Notes: generated by a model not told the origin, from the sequence alone. Positions 30,396 through 44,294 are shown, numbered from the stretch's first letter. The stretch: DNA of 64,000 nucleotides from Halalkalicoccus jeotgali B3 (GCF_000196895.1 NC_014297.1:1846295-1910294), one strand, 5' to 3'. Numbers and translations are program-made.

Positions 30396-31433
30396 TCAGG
30401 GGACGATGACCGCCCGGCCCTCGATTTCGCCCTCTTCGAGCGCCGCCGCGACATCGTTGATCTCCTCGATGGGGTACTGTGTGGTCTCGAGGTGCATCTC
30501 CCCCTGCTCGACCAGCGAGACGAGCTCCTGGAGCTCGGTGTACTTCCCGACGATGTTCCCGACGAAGGAGAACTCCCCGTTGACCAGTGCCTGGGCGGGT
30601 TCATGGATGTGTCCGCCGTAGCCGATGATGTGGTGATCGCCCCCCGGTGCGACGATCTCAGGGGCCAGCGCCGTGGTCTGATCCGCGCCGACGAAGTCGA
30701 GCACCTGCTCTGCGCCCGCGCCGTCGGTGATCCCCGCAATCGCCTCGGCGACGTCCTCGTCGGCGGAGTTGATCGTGTGGTCCGCCCCGAGCCGATCCGC
30801 AAGCGAGAGGGCCTCGTCTTTGACGTCGACGGCGATGGTCGTGCTCGCACTCATCGCCTCCACCGCTTGGAGACCGATGTGGCCCAGCCCGCCGATCCCG
30901 ATCACGACCGTGTAGCTCCCCGGAAACAGGTTCGGGGTCGCCTTCTTGACCGCGTGATACGCGGTGATCCCGGCGTCGGCGTGGGGCGCGATCTCGACGG
31001 GATCGACCGAATCGAGTTTGATCGCCGCGCGTTCGGAGGTCAGCAGGTACTCCGCGAACCCGCCGTCGACGTTCAGGCCGGGAAACGAGGCGTTCTCGCA
31101 GTGCATGTCCTCGCCGAGCCGACAGGCCCGACACTCCCCGCAGGTCACGTGGGGATGACAGATCACCTTATCGCCGACCTCCACGGTCGTCACCTCCTCG
31201 CCGATCTCCACTACTTCCCCGGCGTTCTCGTGGCCGAGCGTCATCGGCAGGTCCTGTTCGACGTAGTCGGTCCACATCCCCTCGATAATGTGGTTGTCCG
31301 TCTGGCACCACCCGGCCCCCTCGACCTCGATCACGACGTGATCCGAGCGGGTCGGCTCGGGCCGCTCTACCTCGTCGATCGAGAGCGCCTCGCCCATCTC
31401 CTCGGTGTAGTCGTGGAGTCTCGCGGCGTCCAT
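30396..31433 (-). CDS. adh: Zinc-dependent NAD(P) alcohol dehydrogenase
   Basis: 345 residues of the medium-chain dehydrogenase family. Catalytic zinc ligands are Cys43 (GWCQTDN) and His68/Glu69 (GHENAG). Structural zinc is held by Cys98, Cys101, Cys104 and Cys112. The nucleotide motif is VVIGIGGLGHIG near 175. It oxidises primary or secondary alcohols. The divergent neighbours are an amidohydrolase and a DUF59 protein; this trio accompanies propane monooxygenase operons in actinobacteria, where the dehydrogenase handles the product alcohol. No monooxygenase is seen here. Confidence 0.93.
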   Translation of the reverse strand: MDAARLHDYTEEMGEALSIDEVERPEPTRSDHVVIEVEGAGWCQTDNHIIEGMWTDYVEQDLPMTLGHENAGEVVEIGEEVTTVEVGDKVICHPHVTCGECRACRLGEDMHCENASFPGLNVDGGFAEYLLTSERAAIKLDSVDPVEIAPHADAGITAYHAVKKATPNLFPGSYTVVIGIGGLGHIGLQAVEAMSASTTIAVDVKDEALSLADRLGADHTINSADEDVAEAIAGITDGAGAEQVLDFVGADQTTALAPEIVAPGGDHHIIGYGGHIHEPAQALVNGEFSFVGNIVGKYTELQELVSLVEQGEMHLETTQYPIEEINDVAAALEEGEIEGRAVIVP

Positions 31434-31545
31434 AATACGGCTCGATACTCGACTGATACCGACAAAAAGATTGTGTACAAGGCAGTCCGGGCGGACCGCC
31501 GGTGTGCGAAATTATAATGATAGTGCGTCCGTAGTTGCTACTGGT

Positions 31546-32604
31546 ATGTACACATATGACGGTGAAGACGTGTTCGTGCTCGACGGGCACGTCCACTGGT
31601 GGGACGCGAGCAAGGAGAACATCAAACACGAAGGTGGCGAGCAGTTCATCCGCTGTTTCTACGACTATCACACCGGTTTCACCCCCGAGGAGCGCCAGTG
31701 GAGTCTAGAGGAGTATCGCAAGTACGATAAAGACCGGATGGTCCGGGACATGTTCGGCGACGGCCACGCCGACATGGGGCTCCTTCAACCCACGTATCTC
31801 AACGAGTTCTATACGGAGGGCTTTAACACGATCGACCGGTGTGCGCAACTCGCCGAGGACCACCCCTCGCGGTTCATCGTCAACGGGCGATTCGATCCCC
31901 GCGAGGGCGAGGCGGGCCTGAAGGAACTCGAACGCCAGGCCGAGGAGTTCGACGTTCGGGGCGCGAAGGTCTACACCGCCGAGTGGCGCGGCGACTCGAA
32001 GGGGTGGCGACTCGATTCGGAGGAGAGCTTCGAGTACCTCGAGAAGTGTGCCGAACTCGGGATCAAGAACATCCACGCCCACAAGGGGCCGACCATCAGG
32101 CCGCTGAACCGCGACGCCTTCGACGTGGCCGACATCGACGACGCGGCGACCTCCTTTCCCGAACTCAACTTCGTCGTCGAACACATCGGGCTGCCCCGGC
32201 TGGACGACTTCTGCTGGATCGCCGCCCAGGAGCCAAACGTCTACGGTGGGCTGGCGGTCGCCGCCCCGCTCGCAGAGAGCCGCCCGCGGAAGTTCGGCGA
32301 GATCATGGGCGAGTTGCTCTTCTGGCTCGGGGAAGACCGCATCCTCTTCGGCAGCGACTACGCGATCTGGGAACCGGAGTGGCTGATCGAGGCGGTGATG
32401 GAAGCCGAGATGACGCCCGAACAGCGCGAGGAGTTCGGCGTCGAACTCGACCTCGAGGTCAAAAAGAAGATCATGGGCGAGAACGCCGCCCGGCTGTATG
32501 ACATCGACATCGAGCGCCAGAAGGAGATCCTGCGCGGGGACGGCGTCAGCGAGGAGTTCGGACTCGAAGAGCAGTACGCCCGGACCGCGAGCGCGGACGA
32601 CTGA
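31546..32604 (+). CDS. Amidohydrolase-2 family metal-dependent hydrolase
   Basis: 352 residues with a TIM-barrel amidohydrolase pattern. GHVHWWD gives His15 and His17 as metal ligands, IHAHKG near 182 gives a third histidine, VEHIGLPR near 215 a fourth, and LFGSDYAIW near 270 the catalytic aspartate. The protein is read from an ATG at 31546; a longer open frame exists but is not TATA-compatible. The gene for a DUF59 protein starts 3 bases after its stop, and adh is divergent. In actinobacterial propane or acetone monooxygenase loci an equivalent amidohydrolase is needed for monooxygenase activity, perhaps in metal-cofactor maturation; here its client is unknown. Confidence 0.9.
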   Translation: MYTYDGEDVFVLDGHVHWWDASKENIKHEGGEQFIRCFYDYHTGFTPEERQWSLEEYRKYDKDRMVRDMFGDGHADMGLLQPTYLNEFYTEGFNTIDRCAQLAEDHPSRFIVNGRFDPREGEAGLKELERQAEEFDVRGAKVYTAEWRGDSKGWRLDSEESFEYLEKCAELGIKNIHAHKGPTIRPLNRDAFDVADIDDAATSFPELNFVVEHIGLPRLDDFCWIAAQEPNVYGGLAVAAPLAESRPRKFGEIMGELLFWLGEDRILFGSDYAIWEPEWLIEAVMEAEMTPEQREEFGVELDLEVKKKIMGENAARLYDIDIERQKEILRGDGVSEEFGLEEQYARTASADD

Positions 32605-32606
32605 CC

Positions 32607-33356
32607 ATGAGCGAGAGCCAGCGGATCAGCCCCGAAACGATCGAGGAGCGTCTCGAAGCGGTGACCGATCCCGAACTCGACCGCTCGATCGTCGAGCTGG
32701 ACTATATAGTGGACATCGAGATCGAGGGCGGGTCGGTCGAGGTCGGGTTCGTCCTGCCGACCGCGTGGTGCTCGCCGGCGTTCGCGTGGATGATGATGGC
32801 CGACGCCCGCGAGGCCCTCGCCGACCATCCCGCGATTTCGGACGCGACCGTCCGCCTGGACGAGCACATGCACGCAGCGGAGATCAACGAGGGGGTAAAC
32901 GGAGGGCTCGCCTTCGGGGAAGCCTTCGAGGACGCCGACGGCGAGGTCGAGGCCGTCCGCCGCGAACTCGACGGGAAGGCCCGCGTTGCACGCCAGTACC
33001 GAGCGACGGAGACCCTTCTGGAGGGCGGGCTGAAACCCGATCAGATCGCACGGCTTCGCCGCGAGGACCTCTCGATCGACGCCGAGGCGGGGCGGGCGAC
33101 GGTGCGGGTGAACGCGACGCTGTCGGTCTGTGTCGACTCCCAGCCGCTCGAAGACTACCTCGAGAAAGCACTCACGACGGACGTCGCCGACGCACCGGAA
33201 AAACGGCTGTTCGCCACGCCGGAGGGCGAGGCCATCGCCCCCGAGGAGTTCGAGACGGTCCATCGGCGGGGCCGGCTGGCGACGACGAACATGAGCGGGC
33301 AGGGCCACGTCTGTGAGAGCCTCGGGGCGTCGCGGATCGGCTCGCAAAGCGACTGA
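32607..33356 (+). CDS. DUF59/MIP18-family protein with extra C-terminal domain
   Basis: 249 residues. The first 100 hold the MIP18/PaaD-like fold: EERLEAVTDPELDRSIVELDYI at 13-34 and VGFVLPTAWCSPAFAWMM (with Cys55) near 45-62, the cysteine region used in iron-sulfur cluster work. The second half (about 130-245) has no clear family; it has Cys173 and Cys231 with LATTNMSGQGHVCE near the end. Three bases separate it from the amidohydrolase, so both are certainly one operon. An iron-related maturation role is inferred from the family and from monooxygenase-linked relatives. Confidence 0.85.
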   Translation: MSESQRISPETIEERLEAVTDPELDRSIVELDYIVDIEIEGGSVEVGFVLPTAWCSPAFAWMMMADAREALADHPAISDATVRLDEHMHAAEINEGVNGGLAFGEAFEDADGEVEAVRRELDGKARVARQYRATETLLEGGLKPDQIARLRREDLSIDAEAGRATVRVNATLSVCVDSQPLEDYLEKALTTDVADAPEKRLFATPEGEAIAPEEFETVHRRGRLATTNMSGQGHVCESLGASRIGSQSD

Positions 33357-35290: not shown

Positions 35291-36865
35291 TCAGTGATCG
35301 CTCTCGTGGGGGTTCGGTTCGACGCCGTAGTTCGCGGCGTGTTCGGTGTACTCGATAAACCGGGGCGCGTCGGGGTCGAACGGGCGTTCGAGCGACTCGA
35401 ACGCCTGCTTCTTGTCCCAGCCCTGCAGTTTTCCGACTGCCGAGCGGTCCTCCAGGTCGTGATACTCGAGGTCCGGTTCCGTGAGTTCCCAGGCGTCCAT
35501 CCCACGCTCGGTGCGGACGATCACGCTCGAGTACTCGTCGCTCGATCCCACAGAGCCGACGGTCAGATCCGCACAGTAGCCCGTGAAGTCCGCACACTCG
35601 TTGCAGCCCTTGAGGGTGGCGTCGTGGAACTCCGTGACGTCCTCGCGCAGGAGCAACTCGCCCTCGTGATCGTAGACGATCATGTCGCCGTGGAGTACGT
35701 CCATCTTCCCGATCTCGTCGGGGGAGATCCCACGCTTTTCTTCCAACTGCTCGCCGATGAGTCGGTGGTAGTTGAAGTTCTTCGTACACATCAGCGCGAT
35801 CGTGTAGTCGATCGCGCGGACCCCTTCGTCCTGACCGCCGTACTCCCATTCGAACTCCTGTAGGGCGCGGATTCCCTCGATCTCACAGGGCGTGCCCACC
35901 ATCGCGAGCGAGATGTCCTCCGGGTCCTTCTCGGGGAGTTTGTGCTCCCACTGGTCGAGGTCGAGGTTCCCGAGCGCCATCGTCTGGTTGTAGAAACTCC
36001 CCGCGTTGGCAATGACGTCCTCGGGAGTGGTCGCGAGGAAGCTTTCTGCCTTCCAGGGCTCCTCGTCTGACTCGGTCGCGATCAGCGCGCCGTCGATCTC
36101 ACCCTTTTCCAGAAGCGTCGAGAGCACGCCCGTGACGACGCCGCCGTCCTGGGCGCCGTCGGTCCAGTCATCCTCGATGCGCGCGGAGAACTCCGTGATG
36201 GGGTCGCCCGCGCCCTTCACGTTGTCCTCGCCGCCCGTAACCACCCACTGGCGCTCGTAGCGCAGTCCCCCGCGGGGACAGAAGTCCCAGCACAGCGAAC
36301 AGCCCGTACACATCTTGACGAGTTCGGGCAGGTCGTCGTCGCCGATCCCGATCGAATCGGAGGGACAGGCCGCAACGCAGGTCCCACACTGGATGCACCG
36401 CCCGTCGTCGATAACGGCCGTATCGAGCTCCATGAACCAGGTCTTCTCGTCGGGCGTCTCGATGTCGTTCATCTCCGAGCGGATCGAATCGGACGGGGTG
36501 TCGAGGTCGACACCCGCCGGGACGTTCACGCGCTCGGCCGGGTCGTCCTCTAGAGTCTGGCTCGTCCCCTCGCTCGGCGTCGTGAACTGCAGGTCCCCGA
36601 GGCGTCCATCAGGGCCGACGTTGACCGCGCCGCCACTACCGTCGGCGGCCACTTTCGAACCACCGCCACAGCTGCCATCCCCGCAGCCACAGTCGTCGAC
36701 AGCGCGCTCCGTGGTCGTTTCGACCCCGCTCTCGTCGGCTCGCCGATAGCGGATCGGCTTCGCGTCGGGGTCGGTTCCCGTCGGGTTGCGTGGCCCGCTC
36801 GTCGGCGGGACGCTCGTTCCCGGGGTATCGGAATCGGGCACGCGGGGGAGCGGGCGCTCAGTCAT
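35291..36865 (-). CDS. FrhB-like coenzyme F420 oxidoreductase with N-terminal 2x[4Fe-4S] domain
   Basis: 524 residues. An unusual N-terminal region of about 145 residues contains a short Cys-rich patch (CGCGDGSC near 59-66). A two-cluster ferredoxin domain follows, with CIQCGTCVAACP (Cys157, 160, 163, 167) and CTGCSLCWDFCP (Cys186, 189, 192, 196). The FrhB/FdhB N- and C-terminal domains fill residues 210-520 and should bind F420 and FAD. Its start overlaps the stop of the siroheme reductase gene by 8 bases. The order ferredoxin, FrhB matches the N-terminal half of methanogen Fsr. It likely oxidises F420H2 and passes electrons to the reductase, an inference. Confidence 0.88.
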   Translation of the reverse strand: MTERPLPRVPDSDTPGTSVPPTSGPRNPTGTDPDAKPIRYRRADESGVETTTERAVDDCGCGDGSCGGGSKVAADGSGGAVNVGPDGRLGDLQFTTPSEGTSQTLEDDPAERVNVPAGVDLDTPSDSIRSEMNDIETPDEKTWFMELDTAVIDDGRCIQCGTCVAACPSDSIGIGDDDLPELVKMCTGCSLCWDFCPRGGLRYERQWVVTGGEDNVKGAGDPITEFSARIEDDWTDGAQDGGVVTGVLSTLLEKGEIDGALIATESDEEPWKAESFLATTPEDVIANAGSFYNQTMALGNLDLDQWEHKLPEKDPEDISLAMVGTPCEIEGIRALQEFEWEYGGQDEGVRAIDYTIALMCTKNFNYHRLIGEQLEEKRGISPDEIGKMDVLHGDMIVYDHEGELLLREDVTEFHDATLKGCNECADFTGYCADLTVGSVGSSDEYSSVIVRTERGMDAWELTEPDLEYHDLEDRSAVGKLQGWDKKQAFESLERPFDPDAPRFIEYTEHAANYGVEPNPHESDH

Positions 36866-38555
36866 CGGCGGCCACCCCCTTCGAGACGGGCGCATCCGCA
36901 CCCTGCATCACCGCCCGCAGGCGGTCGTTCTCGACCTGCCGCGTCCACTCGTAGAAGCGCTCCCCGTCCTCGCGTTCCTCGGCGTACGCCGAAAAGAGCG
37001 TTTCGAGCGCGGGAATGACGGCATCGGCAGGAACGGCCGTCTCCACCCAATCGAGAAACGCGTTGTCGGTGCCGAGACTCCCCCCGAGGCCGAAGTCCAT
37101 GCCCTCGACGATGTCGTCGGCATCTCCGTCGCCATCCGTGTCCAGTTGCACGGTCTCGCCGCGGAAGCCGATGTCCGCGATCTGGGGCTGGGCACACGAG
37201 GCCGAACAGCCGCTCATGTGCATTCGCACCACCTCGAGGTCCTCGGGCGTCTCGATGCGCTCGTCGAGTTCGCGTGCCCACCGCCTGACGCGGTTTTTCG
37301 TCTCGATGATGCCGTAGTTACAGAACTCGCTGCCGGTGCAGCCGACCGCCCCCCGCGAGAACGGGCCGGGATCGGGCTGGTAGTCGGCGGCGAAGGGTTC
37401 GTTGAGTAGGTCCTCGACGTTCTCCGCGGGGATATGGGTGATGAGGAAGTTCTGATCCGTAGCCAGCCGGACCGAACTCTCCTCGGTGCCGTACTCGCGG
37501 GCGGCGCGGGCGGCTGCGGCGAACTCCTCGCCGCCCATTCGTCCGGCGATCACGTTGAACCCGACGTAGTTCAATCCGGGCTCTCGCTGGTCGTGGACGC
37601 CGACGTGATCGCCCCGGTAGCCCTCGGTGAGGCCCTCGCCCCGTTCGCGCAAGTCGACCGAACACCGATCGCGGACGGCCGCCTCGAAGTTCTCGGGGCC
37701 GAGTTGCTGGACGAGATAGCGCATCCGACAGACCCCGCGGTTGTGCCGGTCGCCGAGCTCCTTGAACGTCTGGGCGACGGCACGACAGAACTCGACTGTG
37801 TCCTCCGGGCGCACGAAGACGTCGAGTTCCGAGGCCATGCGCGGGCCATCGGAGAGGCCGCCGCCGACGCGGGCGTGAAAGCCGTAGTGGGGTTCGCCGT
37901 CGATCCGTTTTCGGGCCGGCACCAGCCCGGCGTCGTTGATCTGCGATTGGGCACAGTCGTGTTTGCAGCCGGTGATCGTCATCTTGAACTTCCGGGGCAG
38001 GTTCGCGTATTCGCGATTGCCCGTGAAAAAGTCCGAGACTGCGTCGATAACGGGCTGGGCGTCGAAACACTCGTGATCGTCGAGACCGGCGGCCGGACAG
38101 CCGAGCACGTTTCGCGCGCCGTCGCCACAGCCCTGGATCGTCGTCAGCCCCACCTCGTCGTAGCGCTCCCAGATCTCGGGGATGTCCTCGATCTCGATCC
38201 AATGCGTTTGAACGTCCTGTCGGGTCGTGACGTCGAGGAAGGCGTCGCCCCACAGGTCGTTTTGCTCGCTGCCGCCGTATTCTTCGGGTGCGGTCGCGAA
38301 CTCCGTGGCGACCTCGCCGATCACCTCGGCTTGCTCGGGGGTTAGTCGACCACCGGGGACCTTCGTGCGCATCATCAGATACCCCCGCTGGCGACCGTGG
38401 GTGTACATTCCGGTCCACTTCATGCGCTCCCAGACGCCCTCGCCCGCCCGCTCCTCGATCTCGTCGAACGACAGCCCCGCCGCGGCGTACTCGTGGACGT
38501 CCTCGACTGCGTCGAGGGGATGTTTCTCCCGTTTCCATTCCTCTACCGTGTTCAC
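36858..38555 (-). CDS. Siroheme nitrite/sulfite reductase, NirA-like
   Basis: 565 residues with the duplicated ferredoxin-like and sulfite-reductase domains. The [4Fe-4S]-siroheme site is CTGSEFC (Cys406, Cys412) and CSASC (Cys450, Cys454). GIIETK after the first pair and QGCGDGARNVLGCPAAG in the first half follow ferredoxin-nitrite reductases more than assimilatory sulfite reductases. It performs a six-electron reduction of nitrite to ammonia or sulfite to sulfide. The normal partner would be ferredoxin; here the overlapping gene encodes an F420-binding protein instead. A candidate operator and promoter lie about 300 bases upstream. Confidence 0.9.
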   Translation of the reverse strand: MNTVEEWKREKHPLDAVEDVHEYAAAGLSFDEIEERAGEGVWERMKWTGMYTHGRQRGYLMMRTKVPGGRLTPEQAEVIGEVATEFATAPEEYGGSEQNDLWGDAFLDVTTRQDVQTHWIEIEDIPEIWERYDEVGLTTIQGCGDGARNVLGCPAAGLDDHECFDAQPVIDAVSDFFTGNREYANLPRKFKMTITGCKHDCAQSQINDAGLVPARKRIDGEPHYGFHARVGGGLSDGPRMASELDVFVRPEDTVEFCRAVAQTFKELGDRHNRGVCRMRYLVQQLGPENFEAAVRDRCSVDLRERGEGLTEGYRGDHVGVHDQREPGLNYVGFNVIAGRMGGEEFAAAARAAREYGTEESSVRLATDQNFLITHIPAENVEDLLNEPFAADYQPDPGPFSRGAVGCTGSEFCNYGIIETKNRVRRWARELDERIETPEDLEVVRMHMSGCSASCAQPQIADIGFRGETVQLDTDGDGDADDIVEGMDFGLGGSLGTDNAFLDWVETAVPADAVIPALETLFSAYAEEREDGERFYEWTRQVENDRLRAVMQGADAPVSKGVAADD

Positions 38556-38939: not shown

Positions 38940-39410
38940 CTACCCGAGGAACCGCTTGAGGCGTGCGAACAGGCCCTTCGAGGGATCGCCGCCGAGCTGT
39001 TCTTGGCCTCTGGCGGGCTGTCGGTCGTCGGCCGCACTCTCCTCTGTGGTCTCGGTCTCGGTCTCGGTGCTTTCGGTGTCGGCTTCGATGGCGGCGGTCG
39101 ACCCGCTCTCGGCCAGTTCGATGGCCTGCTCGATCAGCCCCTCGGCGTCGTTGACGCCGTCCTTGACCGTCCCGTTTACGAGGGGTTTGTCCTCGAACCG
39201 GTCGCGGTTGACCGACGTGTCGGCGGCGATGATCACCGCATCGGCGGCCGCGATCTCCTCGGTGGTGAGTTCGTCCTGAGTTCCCATGGCACCCTGCACC
39301 TCGACGGAGACGTCGTGGCCCAGGTCCTCCGCGGTGGTGCGGAGGTTCTCCGCAGCCATCTGGCTGTGGGCGATGCCTGTCGGACACGAGGTGATTGCGA
39401 CGATCTTCAT
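38940..39410 (-). CDS. ptfB: PTS fructose EIIB component
   Basis: 156 residues. The EIIB domain begins at once with KIVAITSCPTGIAHSQMAAE, placing the phosphocysteine at Cys9, and ends around residue 100. An acidic, Thr/Glu-rich linker follows, and a short basic tail (LFARLKRFLG) closes the protein, an unusual extra. It accepts phosphate from EIIA and passes it to fructose as EIIC transports it. The ATG overlaps the stop of ptsI by four bases. It is the last gene of the PTS operon. Confidence 0.93.
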   Translation of the reverse strand: MKIVAITSCPTGIAHSQMAAENLRTTAEDLGHDVSVEVQGAMGTQDELTTEEIAAADAVIIAADTSVNRDRFEDKPLVNGTVKDGVNDAEGLIEQAIELAESGSTAAIEADTESTETETETTEESAADDRQPARGQEQLGGDPSKGLFARLKRFLG

Positions 39411-41101
39411 GGGTCGGTAAGTAGGTTCGTGACGTCCGCTCTTGTAGTTGTGGCCAGCGCGCGCTCGGCGAGGTCGTTCGCACGATCCGTCTCGACGGCC
39501 CCGACGTTCGCCTTGACCGCGGGGATCGTGACCGCGCTCATACTGAGTTCGTCGAGCCCCAGCCCGATCAGCAGCTCGGTCAGGTCGGGGTCGCCGGCCA
39601 TCTCGCCGCACATACCGATCCACGCGTCGTTGTCGTGTGCGGCCTCGATACTCCGACGGATCGCTCGCAACACGGGCGGGTGAAGCGGATCGTGCAGATC
39701 CGCCACGCGCTCGTTTTCGCGCGCGGCGGCCATGACGTACTGTGCGAGGTCGTTCGTCCCGATGCTGAGGAAATCGACGCGGGAAGCGAGTTCCTCGGCC
39801 ACGAAGACCGCCCCCGGCGTCTCGATCATGACCCCAAGTTCCGGTATCGCGTACTCCAGTCCCTCCGATGCCAGCGAGTCGGCGACGGCCTCGACCCTGT
39901 CGAGGGCACGGTCGAGCTCCTCGACGGTCGAGACCAGCGGGAACATGACGGCCAGATCGCCGCCCGCGACGGCTCCGGCCCGGAGCAGCGCCCGGAGCTG
40001 GGTCTCGAAGAGCTCTCTATCCGATCCCAGCGACCGGCGGATCCCCCGCTCGCCGAGGAAGGGGTTCTCCTCCGCGGGCAGGTCGAGGTACGGGATCTGC
40101 TTGTCGCCGCCGATGTCGAGGGTGCGGACGACGACCCGTCCCTCCGGGAAGGCTTCGAGCGCCTCGACGTAGCGCTCGTACTGTTCGTCCTCTGCGGGGG
40201 GCTCCTCGCGGTCGAGAAAGAGGAACTCCGTCCGGTAGAGGCCGATCCCGTCGGCGCCCTGCGAGACGGCCCCCTCCAGATCGGCGGCCCGGCCGACGTT
40301 CGCGGCGACCTCGATCTTCCGACCGTCGCTCGTCGCGACCCGCTCGCGGATGGCCGCCTCCTCCGGGCCGGCGCGAGCGTCCGCGACCCGCTCGTCGGTC
40401 GGATCGGCGGCGACGATACCCTCCTCACCGTCGACGACGATCCGCTCGCCCTCCTCGATCGACTCGAGGTCGGAGCCGACCCCGAGGACCGCCGGGATGG
40501 CGAGCGAGCGCGCGAAGATGGCCGCGTGTGAGGTCCGCCCGCCGGTGGCGGTCGCAAAGCCGGCCACGCGCTCGGGATCGAGCTGGGCGGTGTCGCTCGG
40601 GGTGAGCCGTTCGGCCAGCAGGATCGACCCTTCGGGGAGCTCCGCGAGATCGACCCGCTCGCCGCCGGTGAGCAGGCGGACGAGCCGGTCGCGCACGTCC
40701 CGCAGGTCGTCGGCGCGCTCGGCCGTCTGCCCGTCCATCCCCTCGAACTGGGCGATGGGGCCCTCGAAGGCCTCCCGGACGGCGCCCGCCGCGGGTGTCC
40801 CCCCCTCGATGGCCTCGGTGACCCCCGTCTCGATCTGGGGGTCGTCGAGGAACTGGCGGTGGGCGTCGAAGACTGCCGCCTCCTCCTCACCGACCCGTTC
40901 TGCAGTGCGCTCGCGCTCGGCGTCGAGCTCCTCGTGGGCACGCTCGCGGGCGGTTTCGAAGCGGTCTCGCTCGGCCTCGCGCTCGGCCTCCGGAACCGGT
41001 TCGCCGGATTCGTCGCCGGTCTCGGCCGGCCGGTACCAGACGACGCTCCCGACGCCGGTTCGGGGGGTCGCGCCGATTCCCTCGATGACGCGCTCGCTCA
41101 T
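39407..41101 (-). CDS. ptsI: PTS enzyme I (PEP-protein phosphotransferase)
   Basis: 564 residues, full length. The phosphohistidine is His192 in TGGRTSHAAIFARSL, and the PEP-binding barrel has DFLSIGTNDLAQY and the C-terminal GMCGEMAGDP. The enzyme takes phosphate from PEP and gives it to HPr. It overlaps ptsH (ATGA at 41098-41101) and ptfB (39407-39410), so the three are translationally coupled. The same order is known from the fructose-induced Haloferax volcanii locus. Confidence 0.95.
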   Translation of the reverse strand: MSERVIEGIGATPRTGVGSVVWYRPAETGDESGEPVPEAEREAERDRFETARERAHEELDAERERTAERVGEEEAAVFDAHRQFLDDPQIETGVTEAIEGGTPAAGAVREAFEGPIAQFEGMDGQTAERADDLRDVRDRLVRLLTGGERVDLAELPEGSILLAERLTPSDTAQLDPERVAGFATATGGRTSHAAIFARSLAIPAVLGVGSDLESIEEGERIVVDGEEGIVAADPTDERVADARAGPEEAAIRERVATSDGRKIEVAANVGRAADLEGAVSQGADGIGLYRTEFLFLDREEPPAEDEQYERYVEALEAFPEGRVVVRTLDIGGDKQIPYLDLPAEENPFLGERGIRRSLGSDRELFETQLRALLRAGAVAGGDLAVMFPLVSTVEELDRALDRVEAVADSLASEGLEYAIPELGVMIETPGAVFVAEELASRVDFLSIGTNDLAQYVMAAARENERVADLHDPLHPPVLRAIRRSIEAAHDNDAWIGMCGEMAGDPDLTELLIGLGLDELSMSAVTIPAVKANVGAVETDRANDLAERALATTTRADVTNLLTDP

Positions 41102-41385
41102 GACTCGCCTTCGGGCGTTGAGAGCACCCTCTCGAGGGCGTCGAGCGCCTCCTCGGCGTCCTCCCCTTCGGCGACGATCCGGAGGTGCTCGCCCTGTTTG
41201 ACCCCGAGGCTCGTCACCGCGATCATGCTGCCGGCGTCGATGAGGTCCTCGTCCCCGTCCTCGGCGCTCCCGATCTTCACCGTCGCGTCGTGGTCGTTGG
41301 CTGTCTCGACGAACGTCGCGGCGGGGCGGGCGTGCAGTCCTGCTTCGGGGACGATCTCGACGGTCCGCTCGTGGGTTTCGCTCAT
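41098..41385 (-). CDS. ptsH: PTS phosphocarrier HPr
   Basis: 95 residues with GLHARPA, phosphohistidine His18, and the second conserved block IDAGSMIAVTSLGVKQG near 49-65. It carries phosphate from enzyme I to EIIA. An HPr kinase regulatory role cannot be assumed: the serine position is kept (Ser53), but no kinase is known in haloarchaea. The gene is preceded by 115 bases that hold two copies of a hairpin-forming repeat, the only sizeable gap inside the operon. Confidence 0.95.
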   Translation of the reverse strand: MSETHERTVEIVPEAGLHARPAATFVETANDHDATVKIGSAEDGDEDLIDAGSMIAVTSLGVKQGEHLRIVAEGEDAEEALDALERVLSTPEGES

Positions 41386-41414
41386 GCGACTACCCCCAGA
41401 GTATAGCTCTGGTA

Positions 41415-41510
41415 TAGTCGCATTCGCTCACTTCGTTCACTCATGCGACCACCTCCGGATCTTCGATCCGGCGTAGTCGCATTCGTTCGCTTACGCTCAC
41501 TCATGCGACC
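41415..41510. repeat. Two imperfect direct repeats, each able to form a hairpin (MSERSE-type)
   Basis: Copies at 41415-41450 and 41474-41510 share tagtcgcattcg at one end and ctcatgcgacc at the other, with small differences and one indel. On the minus strand each runs from GTCGCAT to ATGCGAC, a perfect 7-base stem around a loop of about 20 bases. Read from the ATG in the first arm they would encode MSERSERMRL and MSERKRTNAT. Part of the sequence also recurs at the ptsH start itself (ctcatgcgac). They lie between ptfA and ptsH and could attenuate or process the transcript. Confidence 0.6.
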
Positions 41511-41977
41511 GCCTCCTGAAGGACCGACTGGACGTCCGCGGGCGTCTCGGCGGCGTAGAGCCCATCCCGTACCTCCTCGTGCATCAGCGCCCGCGAGAGC
41601 GCGCTCAGGATCTCGAGGTGGTCCTCGCCACCGGACGCGGGGACGAGGATCAGGAACAGTAGCTTCGCGGGTTCGTCGTCCATCGACCCGAAGTCGACGC
41701 CGGACGACGAACGTGCGAAGGCAAGTGACGGGCGCTTGACGGCGTCGGTCTGGGCGTGGGGAATCCCGATTCCCATTCCGACGCCGGTCGTCGTCTGCTC
41801 TTCGCGTTCCAACAGCGCATCGAGCGCCCGCTCGCGATCGGAGACGCGCCCCGACTCGACGACCAGATCGAGCAGGTGCTCGATGCAGGCGTCCTTCTCT
41901 GCGGGCGGTTCCGAAAGCGAGATCTGTTCTTCGGGCAGCAGGTCGTCGATGTCCTCGTTGGTGATTGTCGAACTCAT
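41501..41977 (-). CDS. ptfA: PTS fructose EIIA component
   Basis: 158 residues, one EIIA(Fru/Mtl) domain. The phosphohistidine is His74 in GMGIGIPHAQTDAV, with LLFLILVPASGGEDHLEILS following as the usual second block. It passes phosphate from HPr to EIIB. It is 9 bases downstream of ptfC. The final codons overlap the second repeat copy (41501-41510). Function in fructose uptake is supported by the gene set and by pfkB nearby. Confidence 0.95.
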   Translation of the reverse strand: MSSTITNEDIDDLLPEEQISLSEPPAEKDACIEHLLDLVVESGRVSDRERALDALLEREEQTTTGVGMGIGIPHAQTDAVKRPSLAFARSSSGVDFGSMDDEPAKLLFLILVPASGGEDHLEILSALSRALMHEEVRDGLYAAETPADVQSVLQEAVA

Positions 41978-41986
41978 AGATGTGTA

Positions 41987-43144
41987 TTAGTCGCTGGTTC
42001 GGGTTACGGTTTGTGTCTCCGTCTCGGTCGATCCGACGGTCTTCTCGAAGTCGTCTTTCAACAGCGTGGCGACCGTGGCGGTGATGACGGTTCCGAGTAC
42101 GATACAGCCCAGGAACAACAGCACGCTGCTCGAGAGGAAGACGACGAAGATCCCGCCGTGGGGTGCGGGCATCGTCACGCCGAGCGAGAGCGCGGCCGCC
42201 CCGGCGACGGCGCTGCCCGCGACCGCGCTCGGGATCACGCGAAGCGGGTCGGCCGCGGCGTAGGGGATCGCCCCCTCGGTGATGAAGGCCAACCCGAGCG
42301 GAACGGCCGCCTTCGCGTTCTCGTACATCTCGGCGGTGTACTTCTGGGGGGCGATGAAGTTCGACAGCGCCAGCCCCAGCGGCGGGGTCATGCCGGCGAT
42401 CATCACCGCCGCCATCGGCCCGTAGATCTGATCGGCGACCAGCACGGTCCCGAAGACGTATGCCACCTTGTTGATCGGCCCGCCCATGTCGGCGGCCATC
42501 ATCGCCCCGAGGATCGCCCCGAGTAACAGCGCGTTCGTTCCTTCCAGTCCCGAAAGGAAGGACGTCAACGCGCTGTCAAGGAGCGCGATCGGAACGCCGA
42601 GGCCGACGATGACGACCGGCGCGAGCACGAGCGTCGTCACGACTGGGATGATCAATACCGGCATCATCGGCTCGATGAATCCCGGGACGCCGAGTCCCTT
42701 CAGCCACCGCGCGACGAAGCCCGCGAGCAATCCGGCGACGATCGCGCCCAAGAAGCCGGCGACTGCACCCTGTGCGTCGAACCCGACGAGCTGGCCCGCC
42801 GCGTCGATGATCGCCTCCTGTTGGATGACGTACGAGAGGACGAACCCCGGTGCGAGACCGGGCCGATCCGCCATCGCGTAGGCGATGTACCCGCCCAGAA
42901 CGGGAATCATCAGCGTCAACCCGAACGAGCCGATCTGTGCGAAGAACCAGCCGACCGTTCCGGTCTGCTCGAACACCTGTTCGGTGTCCCCGAGCGCGAA
43001 CCCCAACGCGAGGAAGATCCCGCCGATCGTTACGAACGGGATCATGAACGAGACCCCCGTCATGAGGTGTTCTTTCACGGCGGTGAGATACTGCCGTGCG
43101 CCCGCCTCCAGCGCCGCGTTATCCGGTGCCATATTCATCACCAT
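41987..43144 (-). CDS. ptfC: PTS fructose EIIC membrane component
   Basis: 385 residues with nine or ten membrane segments. GGYIAYAMADRPGLAPGF near 115-132 and MGGPINKVAYVFG and ITEGAIPYAAADPLRVIPS near 305-323 are hallmarks of fructose-type EIIC, the last holding substrate-binding residues. It carries fructose across the membrane during phosphorylation. Three in-frame ATG codons occur in the first five residues; the first was used. The promoter interval to pfkB carries a GTTCAAAA-N7-CGAA element that is repeated before glpR. Confidence 0.94.
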   Translation of the reverse strand: MVMNMAPDNAALEAGARQYLTAVKEHLMTGVSFMIPFVTIGGIFLALGFALGDTEQVFEQTGTVGWFFAQIGSFGLTLMIPVLGGYIAYAMADRPGLAPGFVLSYVIQQEAIIDAAGQLVGFDAQGAVAGFLGAIVAGLLAGFVARWLKGLGVPGFIEPMMPVLIIPVVTTLVLAPVVIVGLGVPIALLDSALTSFLSGLEGTNALLLGAILGAMMAADMGGPINKVAYVFGTVLVADQIYGPMAAVMIAGMTPPLGLALSNFIAPQKYTAEMYENAKAAVPLGLAFITEGAIPYAAADPLRVIPSAVAGSAVAGAAALSLGVTMPAPHGGIFVVFLSSSVLLFLGCIVLGTVITATVATLLKDDFEKTVGSTETETQTVTRTSD

Positions 43145-43157
43145 CGTTCATCCTAAT

Positions 43158-43176
43158 GTTCAAAAACGTTTTCGAA
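43158..43176. promoter_or_regulatory. Candidate GlpR operator before ptfC
   Basis: TTCAAAAACGTTTTCGAA (43159-43176) is an 18-base near-perfect palindrome around AACGTT, 14 bases before the ptfC start codon. With the preceding G it matches the 19-base element at 44295-44313 as GTTCAAAA-N7-CGAA. Its place close to the transcription start fits a repressor site. Binding by GlpR is inferred from the shared location and known regulation of the Haloferax locus. Confidence 0.5.
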
Positions 43177-43246
43177 TACGATTGTTTCTGATTGGATATT
43201 TGCGATCCAACGCAGGATGCGCAGTCCCAGTGGGAGGGGGAAACGA

Positions 43247-44155
43247 TCAGACGACGTCGACGCCCGACCGATCGACGTCGGAGCGAACGCCCTCGAAGGG
43301 CGGGACGCCGGTTCCCGGGACGGAGACGACCCGGCTGGCGACCGCGACGCCAGTACGGAGGGCCGCCTCGTCCGACCGGCCGCGGTGGCGCTCGGAGAGC
43401 ACCCCGGCCAGGAGCGCGTCGCCGGCGCCGACCGTATCAGCCACGTCGGCGTCGAGCGCCGGGACGTGAACGGCCCGATCCGGCGAGACCATGACCGCAC
43501 CGTCCGATCCGAGGGAGGCGACGACGCGGTCGAACCCCCGATTTCGGAGGGAGCGAGCGGCCGCCACACACTCCTCGACGGTCGTCGTCGGCTCGCCCGT
43601 CGCCGCCGCGAGCTCCTCTCGGTTGGGTTTACAGAGCGCGTACGCCGCCTCGAGGCTCGATAGGAGCGGCCCGTCGACGTCGACGACGGTCTTCCACGGA
43701 CCCGCCCGGGCGACGGCGTCGATCGCCCCGGCATCGAGCCCCGGCGGGAGGCTCCCCGCGACGAGGACCGTCTCCGGCTCGTAACGGCGGATCGTCTCGA
43801 CGACGGCCTCGATCGCACCCGCCTCGACCGTCGGCCCGTCCTGATTGATCTTGTACTCCGCACCGGGCGTGAGGATCGTCGTGTTCAGTCGCGTTCCGTC
43901 GTCGATCTCGACGAAGTCGTTCGGGATCCCCCGCTCGTCCAGCGCCGTCGTCAGGAACCGGCCGAGGAAGCCGCCGACGTACCCGGACGCGAGGGTTTCT
44001 GCCTCCAGTTCAACGAGGTACTTCGAGACGTTGATCCCCTTCCCCCCGGGGTCGAACGTCGCGGCGTCGGTCCGGGCGACCGCGGCGGGTTCGAGCGCCT
44101 CGCCGAGTTCGAGCGTGTGATCGACGGCCGGGTTGAGCGTGACTGTGAGGATCAT
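43247..44155 (-). CDS. pfkB: 1-Phosphofructokinase (PfkB family)
   Basis: 302 residues of the ribokinase/PfkB family. TLNPAVDHTLEL starts the protein as in FruK, GGKGINVSKYL is signature 1, and DTVGAGDALLAGVL holds the catalytic aspartate (near 250) of signature 2. It phosphorylates fructose-1-phosphate made by the PTS to fructose-1,6-bisphosphate. The ATG at 44155 gives MILTVTLNPA. It precedes ptfC by 102 bases on the same strand and is divergent from glpR. Confidence 0.94.
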   Translation of the reverse strand: MILTVTLNPAVDHTLELGEALEPAAVARTDAATFDPGGKGINVSKYLVELEAETLASGYVGGFLGRFLTTALDERGIPNDFVEIDDGTRLNTTILTPGAEYKINQDGPTVEAGAIEAVVETIRRYEPETVLVAGSLPPGLDAGAIDAVARAGPWKTVVDVDGPLLSSLEAAYALCKPNREELAAATGEPTTTVEECVAAARSLRNRGFDRVVASLGSDGAVMVSPDRAVHVPALDADVADTVGAGDALLAGVLSERHRGRSDEAALRTGVAVASRVVSVPGTGVPPFEGVRSDVDRSGVDVV

Positions 44156-44294
44156 GGGTTGTCTCGTCCGGACACGAGGCGACGGGCGGGTTCGGCGAAC
44201 GCCGCCGACCGCCATCGCCCCGCGACAGCATCGGTCGTATCTGTGCATCAGCGGCGACTAAACAGTTCCTGATATGATTTTTTCTGAATATATA

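Follow-up and report, generated by a model that had tools for sequence, protein, structure and literature searches.

Plant nitrite reductases (NiR) and Mycobacterium tuberculosis NirA receive their electrons from ferredoxin. The mycobacterial enzyme (PDB 1zj8), a sulfite reductase with a covalent Tyr69–Cys161 link, is not known to have an FrhB partner. Elsewhere, an FrhB module links F420 to siroheme, CO dehydrogenase and formylmethanofuran dehydrogenase enzymes (PMC10229431, PMC11493965). In group I Fsr of methanogens (7np8, 7npa; PMC10229431), a ferredoxin plus FrhB-type F420H2-oxidase half feeds a siroheme centre within one chain, the siroheme half being a single Dsr-type repeat with an inserted ferredoxin domain. 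FsrII/FNiR of ANME-2c likewise couples an FrhB-type half to a siroheme reductase in a single chain, with a Dsr-type half and altered cluster motifs; with F420H2, FsrII reduces nitrite and not sulfite, and what sets this choice is its electron-transfer part, not the site where the substrate binds (PMC9295563). The F420-reductase subunits of the Ca. Ethanoperedens CODH and Fwd complexes (8riu, 8rja; PMC11493965) are plug-in modules, also made of ferredoxin and FrhB parts, that are coupled to CO or formate oxidation and work in the F420-reducing direction. In haloarchaea, the importance of F420 was called enigmatic in a 2021 review, which counted a single reported F420-dependent reaction (PMC8305020).

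A haloarchaeal gene pair of related composition was named aFsr, a putative F420H2-dependent assimilatory-type sulfite reductase, by Susanti and Mukhopadhyay in 2012, and the tree legend of that paper includes Halalkalicoccus jeotgali (PMC3448663). As described there, aFsr comprises an aSir/NirA-type siroheme subunit and an Fsr-N homologue (FrhB with two N-terminal [4Fe-4S] motifs) encoded by linked genes. A full-text literature search finds the name only in the 2012 paper and in a later figure legend citing it; the same search, with most subscription journals outside its reach, returned no experimental test or biochemistry of aFsr.

Here we analyse a pair of this type in a window of 64,000 nucleotides from H. 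jeotgali B3 (Table 1). Its two genes, subunit types and class are those of aFsr, with no difference in kind. The best reading of the pair is the aFsr of the 2012 proposal: real, conserved and known only as a prediction. A preliminary description of the locus reached an interpretation that is for the most part correct, though not new. The two ORFs that it described are present at its coordinates, on the minus strand, with the 8-base overlap that it gave (ATG at 36865, stop ending at 36858). Our main additions to the 2012 proposal are sulfite-type residues in the siroheme subunit and a rhodanese-fused sister pair; the available part of PMC3448663 contains neither a residue-level substrate argument nor the rhodanese form. 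The closest named relative of the pair, at 85% identity, is in Halalkalicoccus paucihalophilus, and more close copies occur within the same genus. Directly upstream on the same strand lies a PTS cluster (IIB, enzyme I, HPr, IIA and IIC) with a PfkB kinase (38940-44248), which is likely a separate unit, and a zinc alcohol dehydrogenase, an Amidohydro_2 protein and a FeS_assembly_P (MIP18-type) protein are clustered at 30396-33356.

Table 1 Features of the aFsr pair (window positions) and loci of the sister pairs (locus coordinates).
Feature	Position	Strand	Details	Basis
nirA-type gene (aFsr-alpha)	36858..38555	-	565 aa, GTG start at 38555	Pfam, NCBIfam and PDB matches; residue counts over 79 orthologues
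frhB-like gene (aFsr-beta)	35291..36865	-	524 aa, ATG at 36865	Pfam and PDB profile matches; 81 orthologues; AlphaFold confidence
8-base overlap, nirA stop/frhB start	36858..36865	-	ATGACTGA	Sequence
Cys-rich stretch of N-terminal tail	codons 36656..36697	-	DDCGCGDGSCGGGS, residues 57-70	Cys counts in 81 orthologues
Two ferredoxin-type motifs	codons 36278..36397	-	C157-C160-C163-C167 and C186-C189-C192-C196	at least 99% conserved in orthologues; 25/25 in sister form
QDGG FAD-phosphate motif	codons 36140..36151	-	residues 239-242	conserved 81/81
Rhodanese-fused sister pairs	L122:3989-7654; L126:3950-7616; L129:6555-10262	+; +; -	also L123-L127, L130-L147	

The linkage of the two genes is strict. 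Window-type nirA and window-type frhB occur in an identical set of 82 of 292 haloarchaeal genomes and are absent together elsewhere; in all 82, nirA comes first, on the same strand as and adjacent to frhB, so that, in a check that the preliminary description had called for, the genes are not unlinked in relatives. The pair is retained at 79 of 80 named loci, and the apparent exception (L107) is an additional frhB copy standing alone in an organism whose genome holds a linked pair as well (L089). The frhB start codon overlaps the end of nirA in 76 of 79 named pairs, most commonly by 8 or 11 bases (56/79; these lengths are approximate, the first ATG within 40 bases being taken as the frhB start), and the genes lie in different frames in 116 of the 120 pairs examined. 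Such adjacency is not due to chance, given its retention across genomes and loci and the start/end overlap. Overlaps of this kind suggest that translation of the two genes is coupled and their stoichiometry fixed, and coupling is likely for the 8-base overlap of the window pair. We infer that NirA and the FrhB-like protein are very probably physical partners. A few loci deviate: orphan extra frhB-like copies without an adjoining nirA are found at L107:5980-7395:+ and L128:6059-7342:+, and in two metagenome-derived assemblies a nirA lacks its middle part (L055:1960-3525) and an frhB is broken across two frames (L115:6001-7319), through decay or assembly error.

The NirA-type protein has two NIR_SIR and two NIR_SIR_ferr domains (Pfam). 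It has the NirA/aSir fold of siroheme-[4Fe-4S] reductases, with cluster cysteines C406, C412, C450 and C454. Its best PDB matches are tobacco NiR and M. tuberculosis NirA (E 1e-70 to 1e-86), and its best NCBIfam models are the nitrite reductase and NirA families. By contrast, the match to the siroheme half of Fsr is weak (E about 1e-6). Thus, the preliminary statement that the locus has the same parts as Fsr holds for the FrhB half but not for the siroheme half, which is a two-repeat NirA/aSir-type protein on a separate chain where Fsr has one Dsr-type repeat. The likeness to M. tuberculosis NirA extends from the overall fold to the Tyr69/Cys161 pair (chain positions 80 and 172 in the alignment, an offset of 11). 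The aligned residues of the window protein, Tyr51 and Cys143, are invariant in 79 of 79 orthologues, and Lys191 (78 of 78 aligned) occupies the site of tobacco nitrite reductase Asn226, for which a PDB title records the N226K variant. Judged from sequence, these residues favour sulfite over nitrite. They are insufficient on their own to decide the substrate, as the ANME-2c FsrII case shows (PMC9295563).

The genome supplies a comparison, since it encodes two more NirA proteins, both without an FrhB partner. One, the NasD paralogue (L118), adjoins nasA, a gene of the molybdopterin nitrate-reductase type. Its residues at the three sites are Phe, Gly and Asn, in line with a NasD; it alone combines the Asn, the lack of the Tyr/Cys pair and the nasA linkage, and the window NirA has none of these NasD features. 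The other (L117:4665-6407:-) is sulfite-type, with Tyr, Cys and Lys, and adjoins a DUF6360 gene (L117:4328-4636:-). As nitrite has its own enzyme in this genome, the window pair looks sulfite-type. Its surroundings are silent on the matter: no sulfur genes adjoin the window pair, and the conserved neighbours at 80 loci, with gene names assigned by eye from sequence, hold no substrate clue, since they are limited to genes of housekeeping (ffh, prefoldin-like) and thiamine type. ATP sulfurylase (PF01747) is absent from H. jeotgali and from 285 of 292 haloarchaeal genomes; found in only 7/292, it is useless as a co-occurrence marker of sulfate assimilation. PAPS-reductase-domain proteins are present although ATP sulfurylase is missing.

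The FrhB-like protein consists of an N-terminal tail predicted to be disordered, two ferredoxin-type [4Fe-4S] motifs and an FrhB domain, in which an FAD site is accompanied by a third [4Fe-4S] site (Pfam Fer4 dicluster, FrhB_FdhB_N and FrhB_FdhB_C). The two motifs of the preliminary description are present; the third site (C327, C360, C421 and C424), which it did not list, is conserved at each position in 81 of 81 orthologues. Altogether, the 12 cysteines for three [4Fe-4S] clusters show at least 99% conservation across 81 orthologues and are kept in 25/25 sister-form proteins (described below). The QDGG FAD-phosphate motif, described for FrhB in eLife 2014, and the SVGS loop, also described for FrhB, are each found in 81/81 orthologues. 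The proposed F420-contacting positions are less uniform. In FrhB, the F420 phosphate has been proposed to be held by lysines of the IGKGK loop; at the second of these, the window protein has Asp394, a minority state, as 55 of 81 orthologues have Lys and the sister form is mixed. The preliminary description would have taken loss of F420-binding residues as evidence against its proposal; the FAD and cluster residues are kept, and this one lysine is not. The position of FrhB K75 is Phe in the window protein and variable in the family. It aligns with Asn in 8riu, a complex that reduces F420 (PMC11493965).

A profile search of the PDB with the FrhB-like subunit places F420-coupled modules on top, with E values of 1e-39 to 1e-59 (8riu, Fsr 7np8/7npa, 8rja and FrhB 3zfs/6qgr), and its best PDB sequence match is 8riu. 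In the same search, the chlorophyll reductase HCAR (5dqr), a non-F420 relative, is distant (E 2e-7). Modelled alone with AlphaFold, the subunit has a pLDDT of 54.5, with low confidence in the tail and cluster region. The tail carries the Cys-rich stretch (C58, C60 and C65) that the preliminary description had located correctly and regarded as an oddity; it is common in the family, as 70 of 81 FrhB-like orthologues but 0/25 rhodanese-type partners have at least three cysteines in this tail. The usual pattern is C-x4-C-x-C or C-x-C-x3-C-x-C. About ten orthologues have no Cys-rich tail, which indicates that it is dispensable for the core function of the pair. Its role is a matter of guesswork: it might form a metal site or serve to carry sulfur.

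A second type of NirA–FrhB pair is present in 25 haloarchaeal genomes. Its NirA, of about 800 aa, has an N-terminal double rhodanese domain, assigned in 25/25 from protein length and matching and confirmed with Pfam Rhodanese in the two tested (E about 1e-35), and an FrhB-like partner of about 420 aa follows directly. In several of these pairs the two parts are separated merely by an in-frame stop codon. Near one sister pair, a PAPS-reductase-domain gene and two siroheme-synthesis-type genes (NAD_binding_7, TP_methylase) are found at L129:10713-13454. In an unrooted tree, with long branches flagged, window-type and rhodanese-type NirA group together, apart from the two remaining paralogues, NasD among them. 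Rhodaneses convert thiosulfate to sulfite, and the fusion thus argues for sulfite as the substrate of the NirA–FrhB group. A rhodanese fusion was noted earlier for 19 haloarchaeal NirA proteins, with the FrhB partner unmentioned in the available part of that report (PMC11237513). Because the window genes lie in different frames and cannot be read as one chain, we modelled the sister form as a proxy, using the stop that can be read through in 11 loci. In the fused NirA–FrhB AlphaFold model both halves are folded (mean pLDDT 80.6), and their relative placement is not fixed (pTM 0.60), so that we give the model no weight for or against a complex. A fold search with the modelled sister-form NirA returns M. 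tuberculosis NirA 1zj8 as the closest solved structure.

From these comparisons we propose, with a probability of roughly 0.6, that the pair forms an assimilatory-type sulfite reductase (aFsr) of two subunits, located in the cytoplasm and dependent on F420H2. F420H2 would pass a hydride to the FAD of the FrhB-like subunit; single electrons would then move through FrhB's own [4Fe-4S] cluster and the two ferredoxin-type clusters and enter the NirA-type subunit at its [4Fe-4S]-siroheme centre. There, sulfite would be reduced to sulfide by six electrons, consuming three F420H2 per sulfite. F420H2 could be formed from NADPH by the NpdG/Fno enzyme of the genome: an NADPH:F420 reductase (NpdG) is encoded in H. 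jeotgali, above the curated cut-off, as is F420 ligase, so F420H2 is available. The ligase occurs in 291 of 292 haloarchaea, and its presence thus supports the means without discriminating between readings. The weak points of the aFsr reading are Asp394, the lack of sulfur genes beside the window pair, the absence of ATP sulfurylase, the extra sulfite-type NirA without FrhB, and a proxy complex model in which the halves are left unplaced.

Other readings make different use of the same parts. NirA might work alone with soluble ferredoxin, the FrhB-like protein being a mere neighbour with a separate role, as would fit the ferredoxin dependence of plant NiR and M. tuberculosis NirA and the two further NirA paralogues without FrhB; this is highly improbable in the face of identical genome sets, adjacency in 82/82 genomes, mostly overlapping genes and a second NirA–FrhB pair type. 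If the two proteins act together, the FrhB-like subunit could still be a flavoprotein fed by ferredoxin or another donor, like HCAR and BciB, with F420 uninvolved. HCAR is an FrhB-fold protein that works with ferredoxin, and the case for F420 is weakened by Asp394 and by the variability at the K75 position. However, the window protein is far nearer to F420-coupled modules than to HCAR, position 394 is Lys in most orthologues, the F420-reducing 8riu has Asn at the K75 position, and F420 ligase and NpdG are encoded in the genome; we consider a donor other than F420 quite unlikely. F420 is the best reading because the FrhB residues are kept and F420-coupled modules lead the PDB ranking, and F420H2 is probably the electron donor of the pair. 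The preliminary proposal of an F420H2-driven reductase thus gains support from the retained FAD and cluster residues and the linkage of the genes.

That proposal left the substrate as nitrite or sulfite, and an F420H2-dependent nitrite reductase, or an enzyme acting on both anions like the group II Fsr of ANME-2c, has to be weighed against sulfite reduction. The best NCBIfam models of NirA point towards nitrite, and FsrII, nitrite-only with F420H2 through its electron-transfer part, is a precedent (PMC9295563). Against this, Lys191 and Tyr51/Cys143 are those of a sulfite-type NirA, unlike those of the genome's own nasA-linked NasD; rhodanese domains are fused to the NirA of the sister form, and no nitrate genes are among the conserved neighbours of the pair. 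We therefore regard nitrite reduction as unlikely; the choice narrows in favour of sulfite, which is the likely main substrate of the pair.

As an F420H2-dependent sulfite reductase, aFsr may belong to a haloarchaeal family with two branches. We advance this idea tentatively, at somewhat less than even odds: in addition to the window-type aFsr, a double-rhodanese branch would free sulfite from thiosulfate for the siroheme that sits in its own chain, and the FrhB-like F420H2 oxidase encoded by the adjoining gene would provide the electrons. The partner of the FrhB module is here a siroheme reductase of a second type, which differs from Fsr's Dsr-type half. Found in over a quarter of the sampled haloarchaeal genomes, the pair is a concrete candidate for F420 use in these organisms and a possible route of sulfur assimilation. 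If the two-branch family is true, it would be one of the main uses that haloarchaea make of F420 and would provide a one-complex route from thiosulfate to sulfide.
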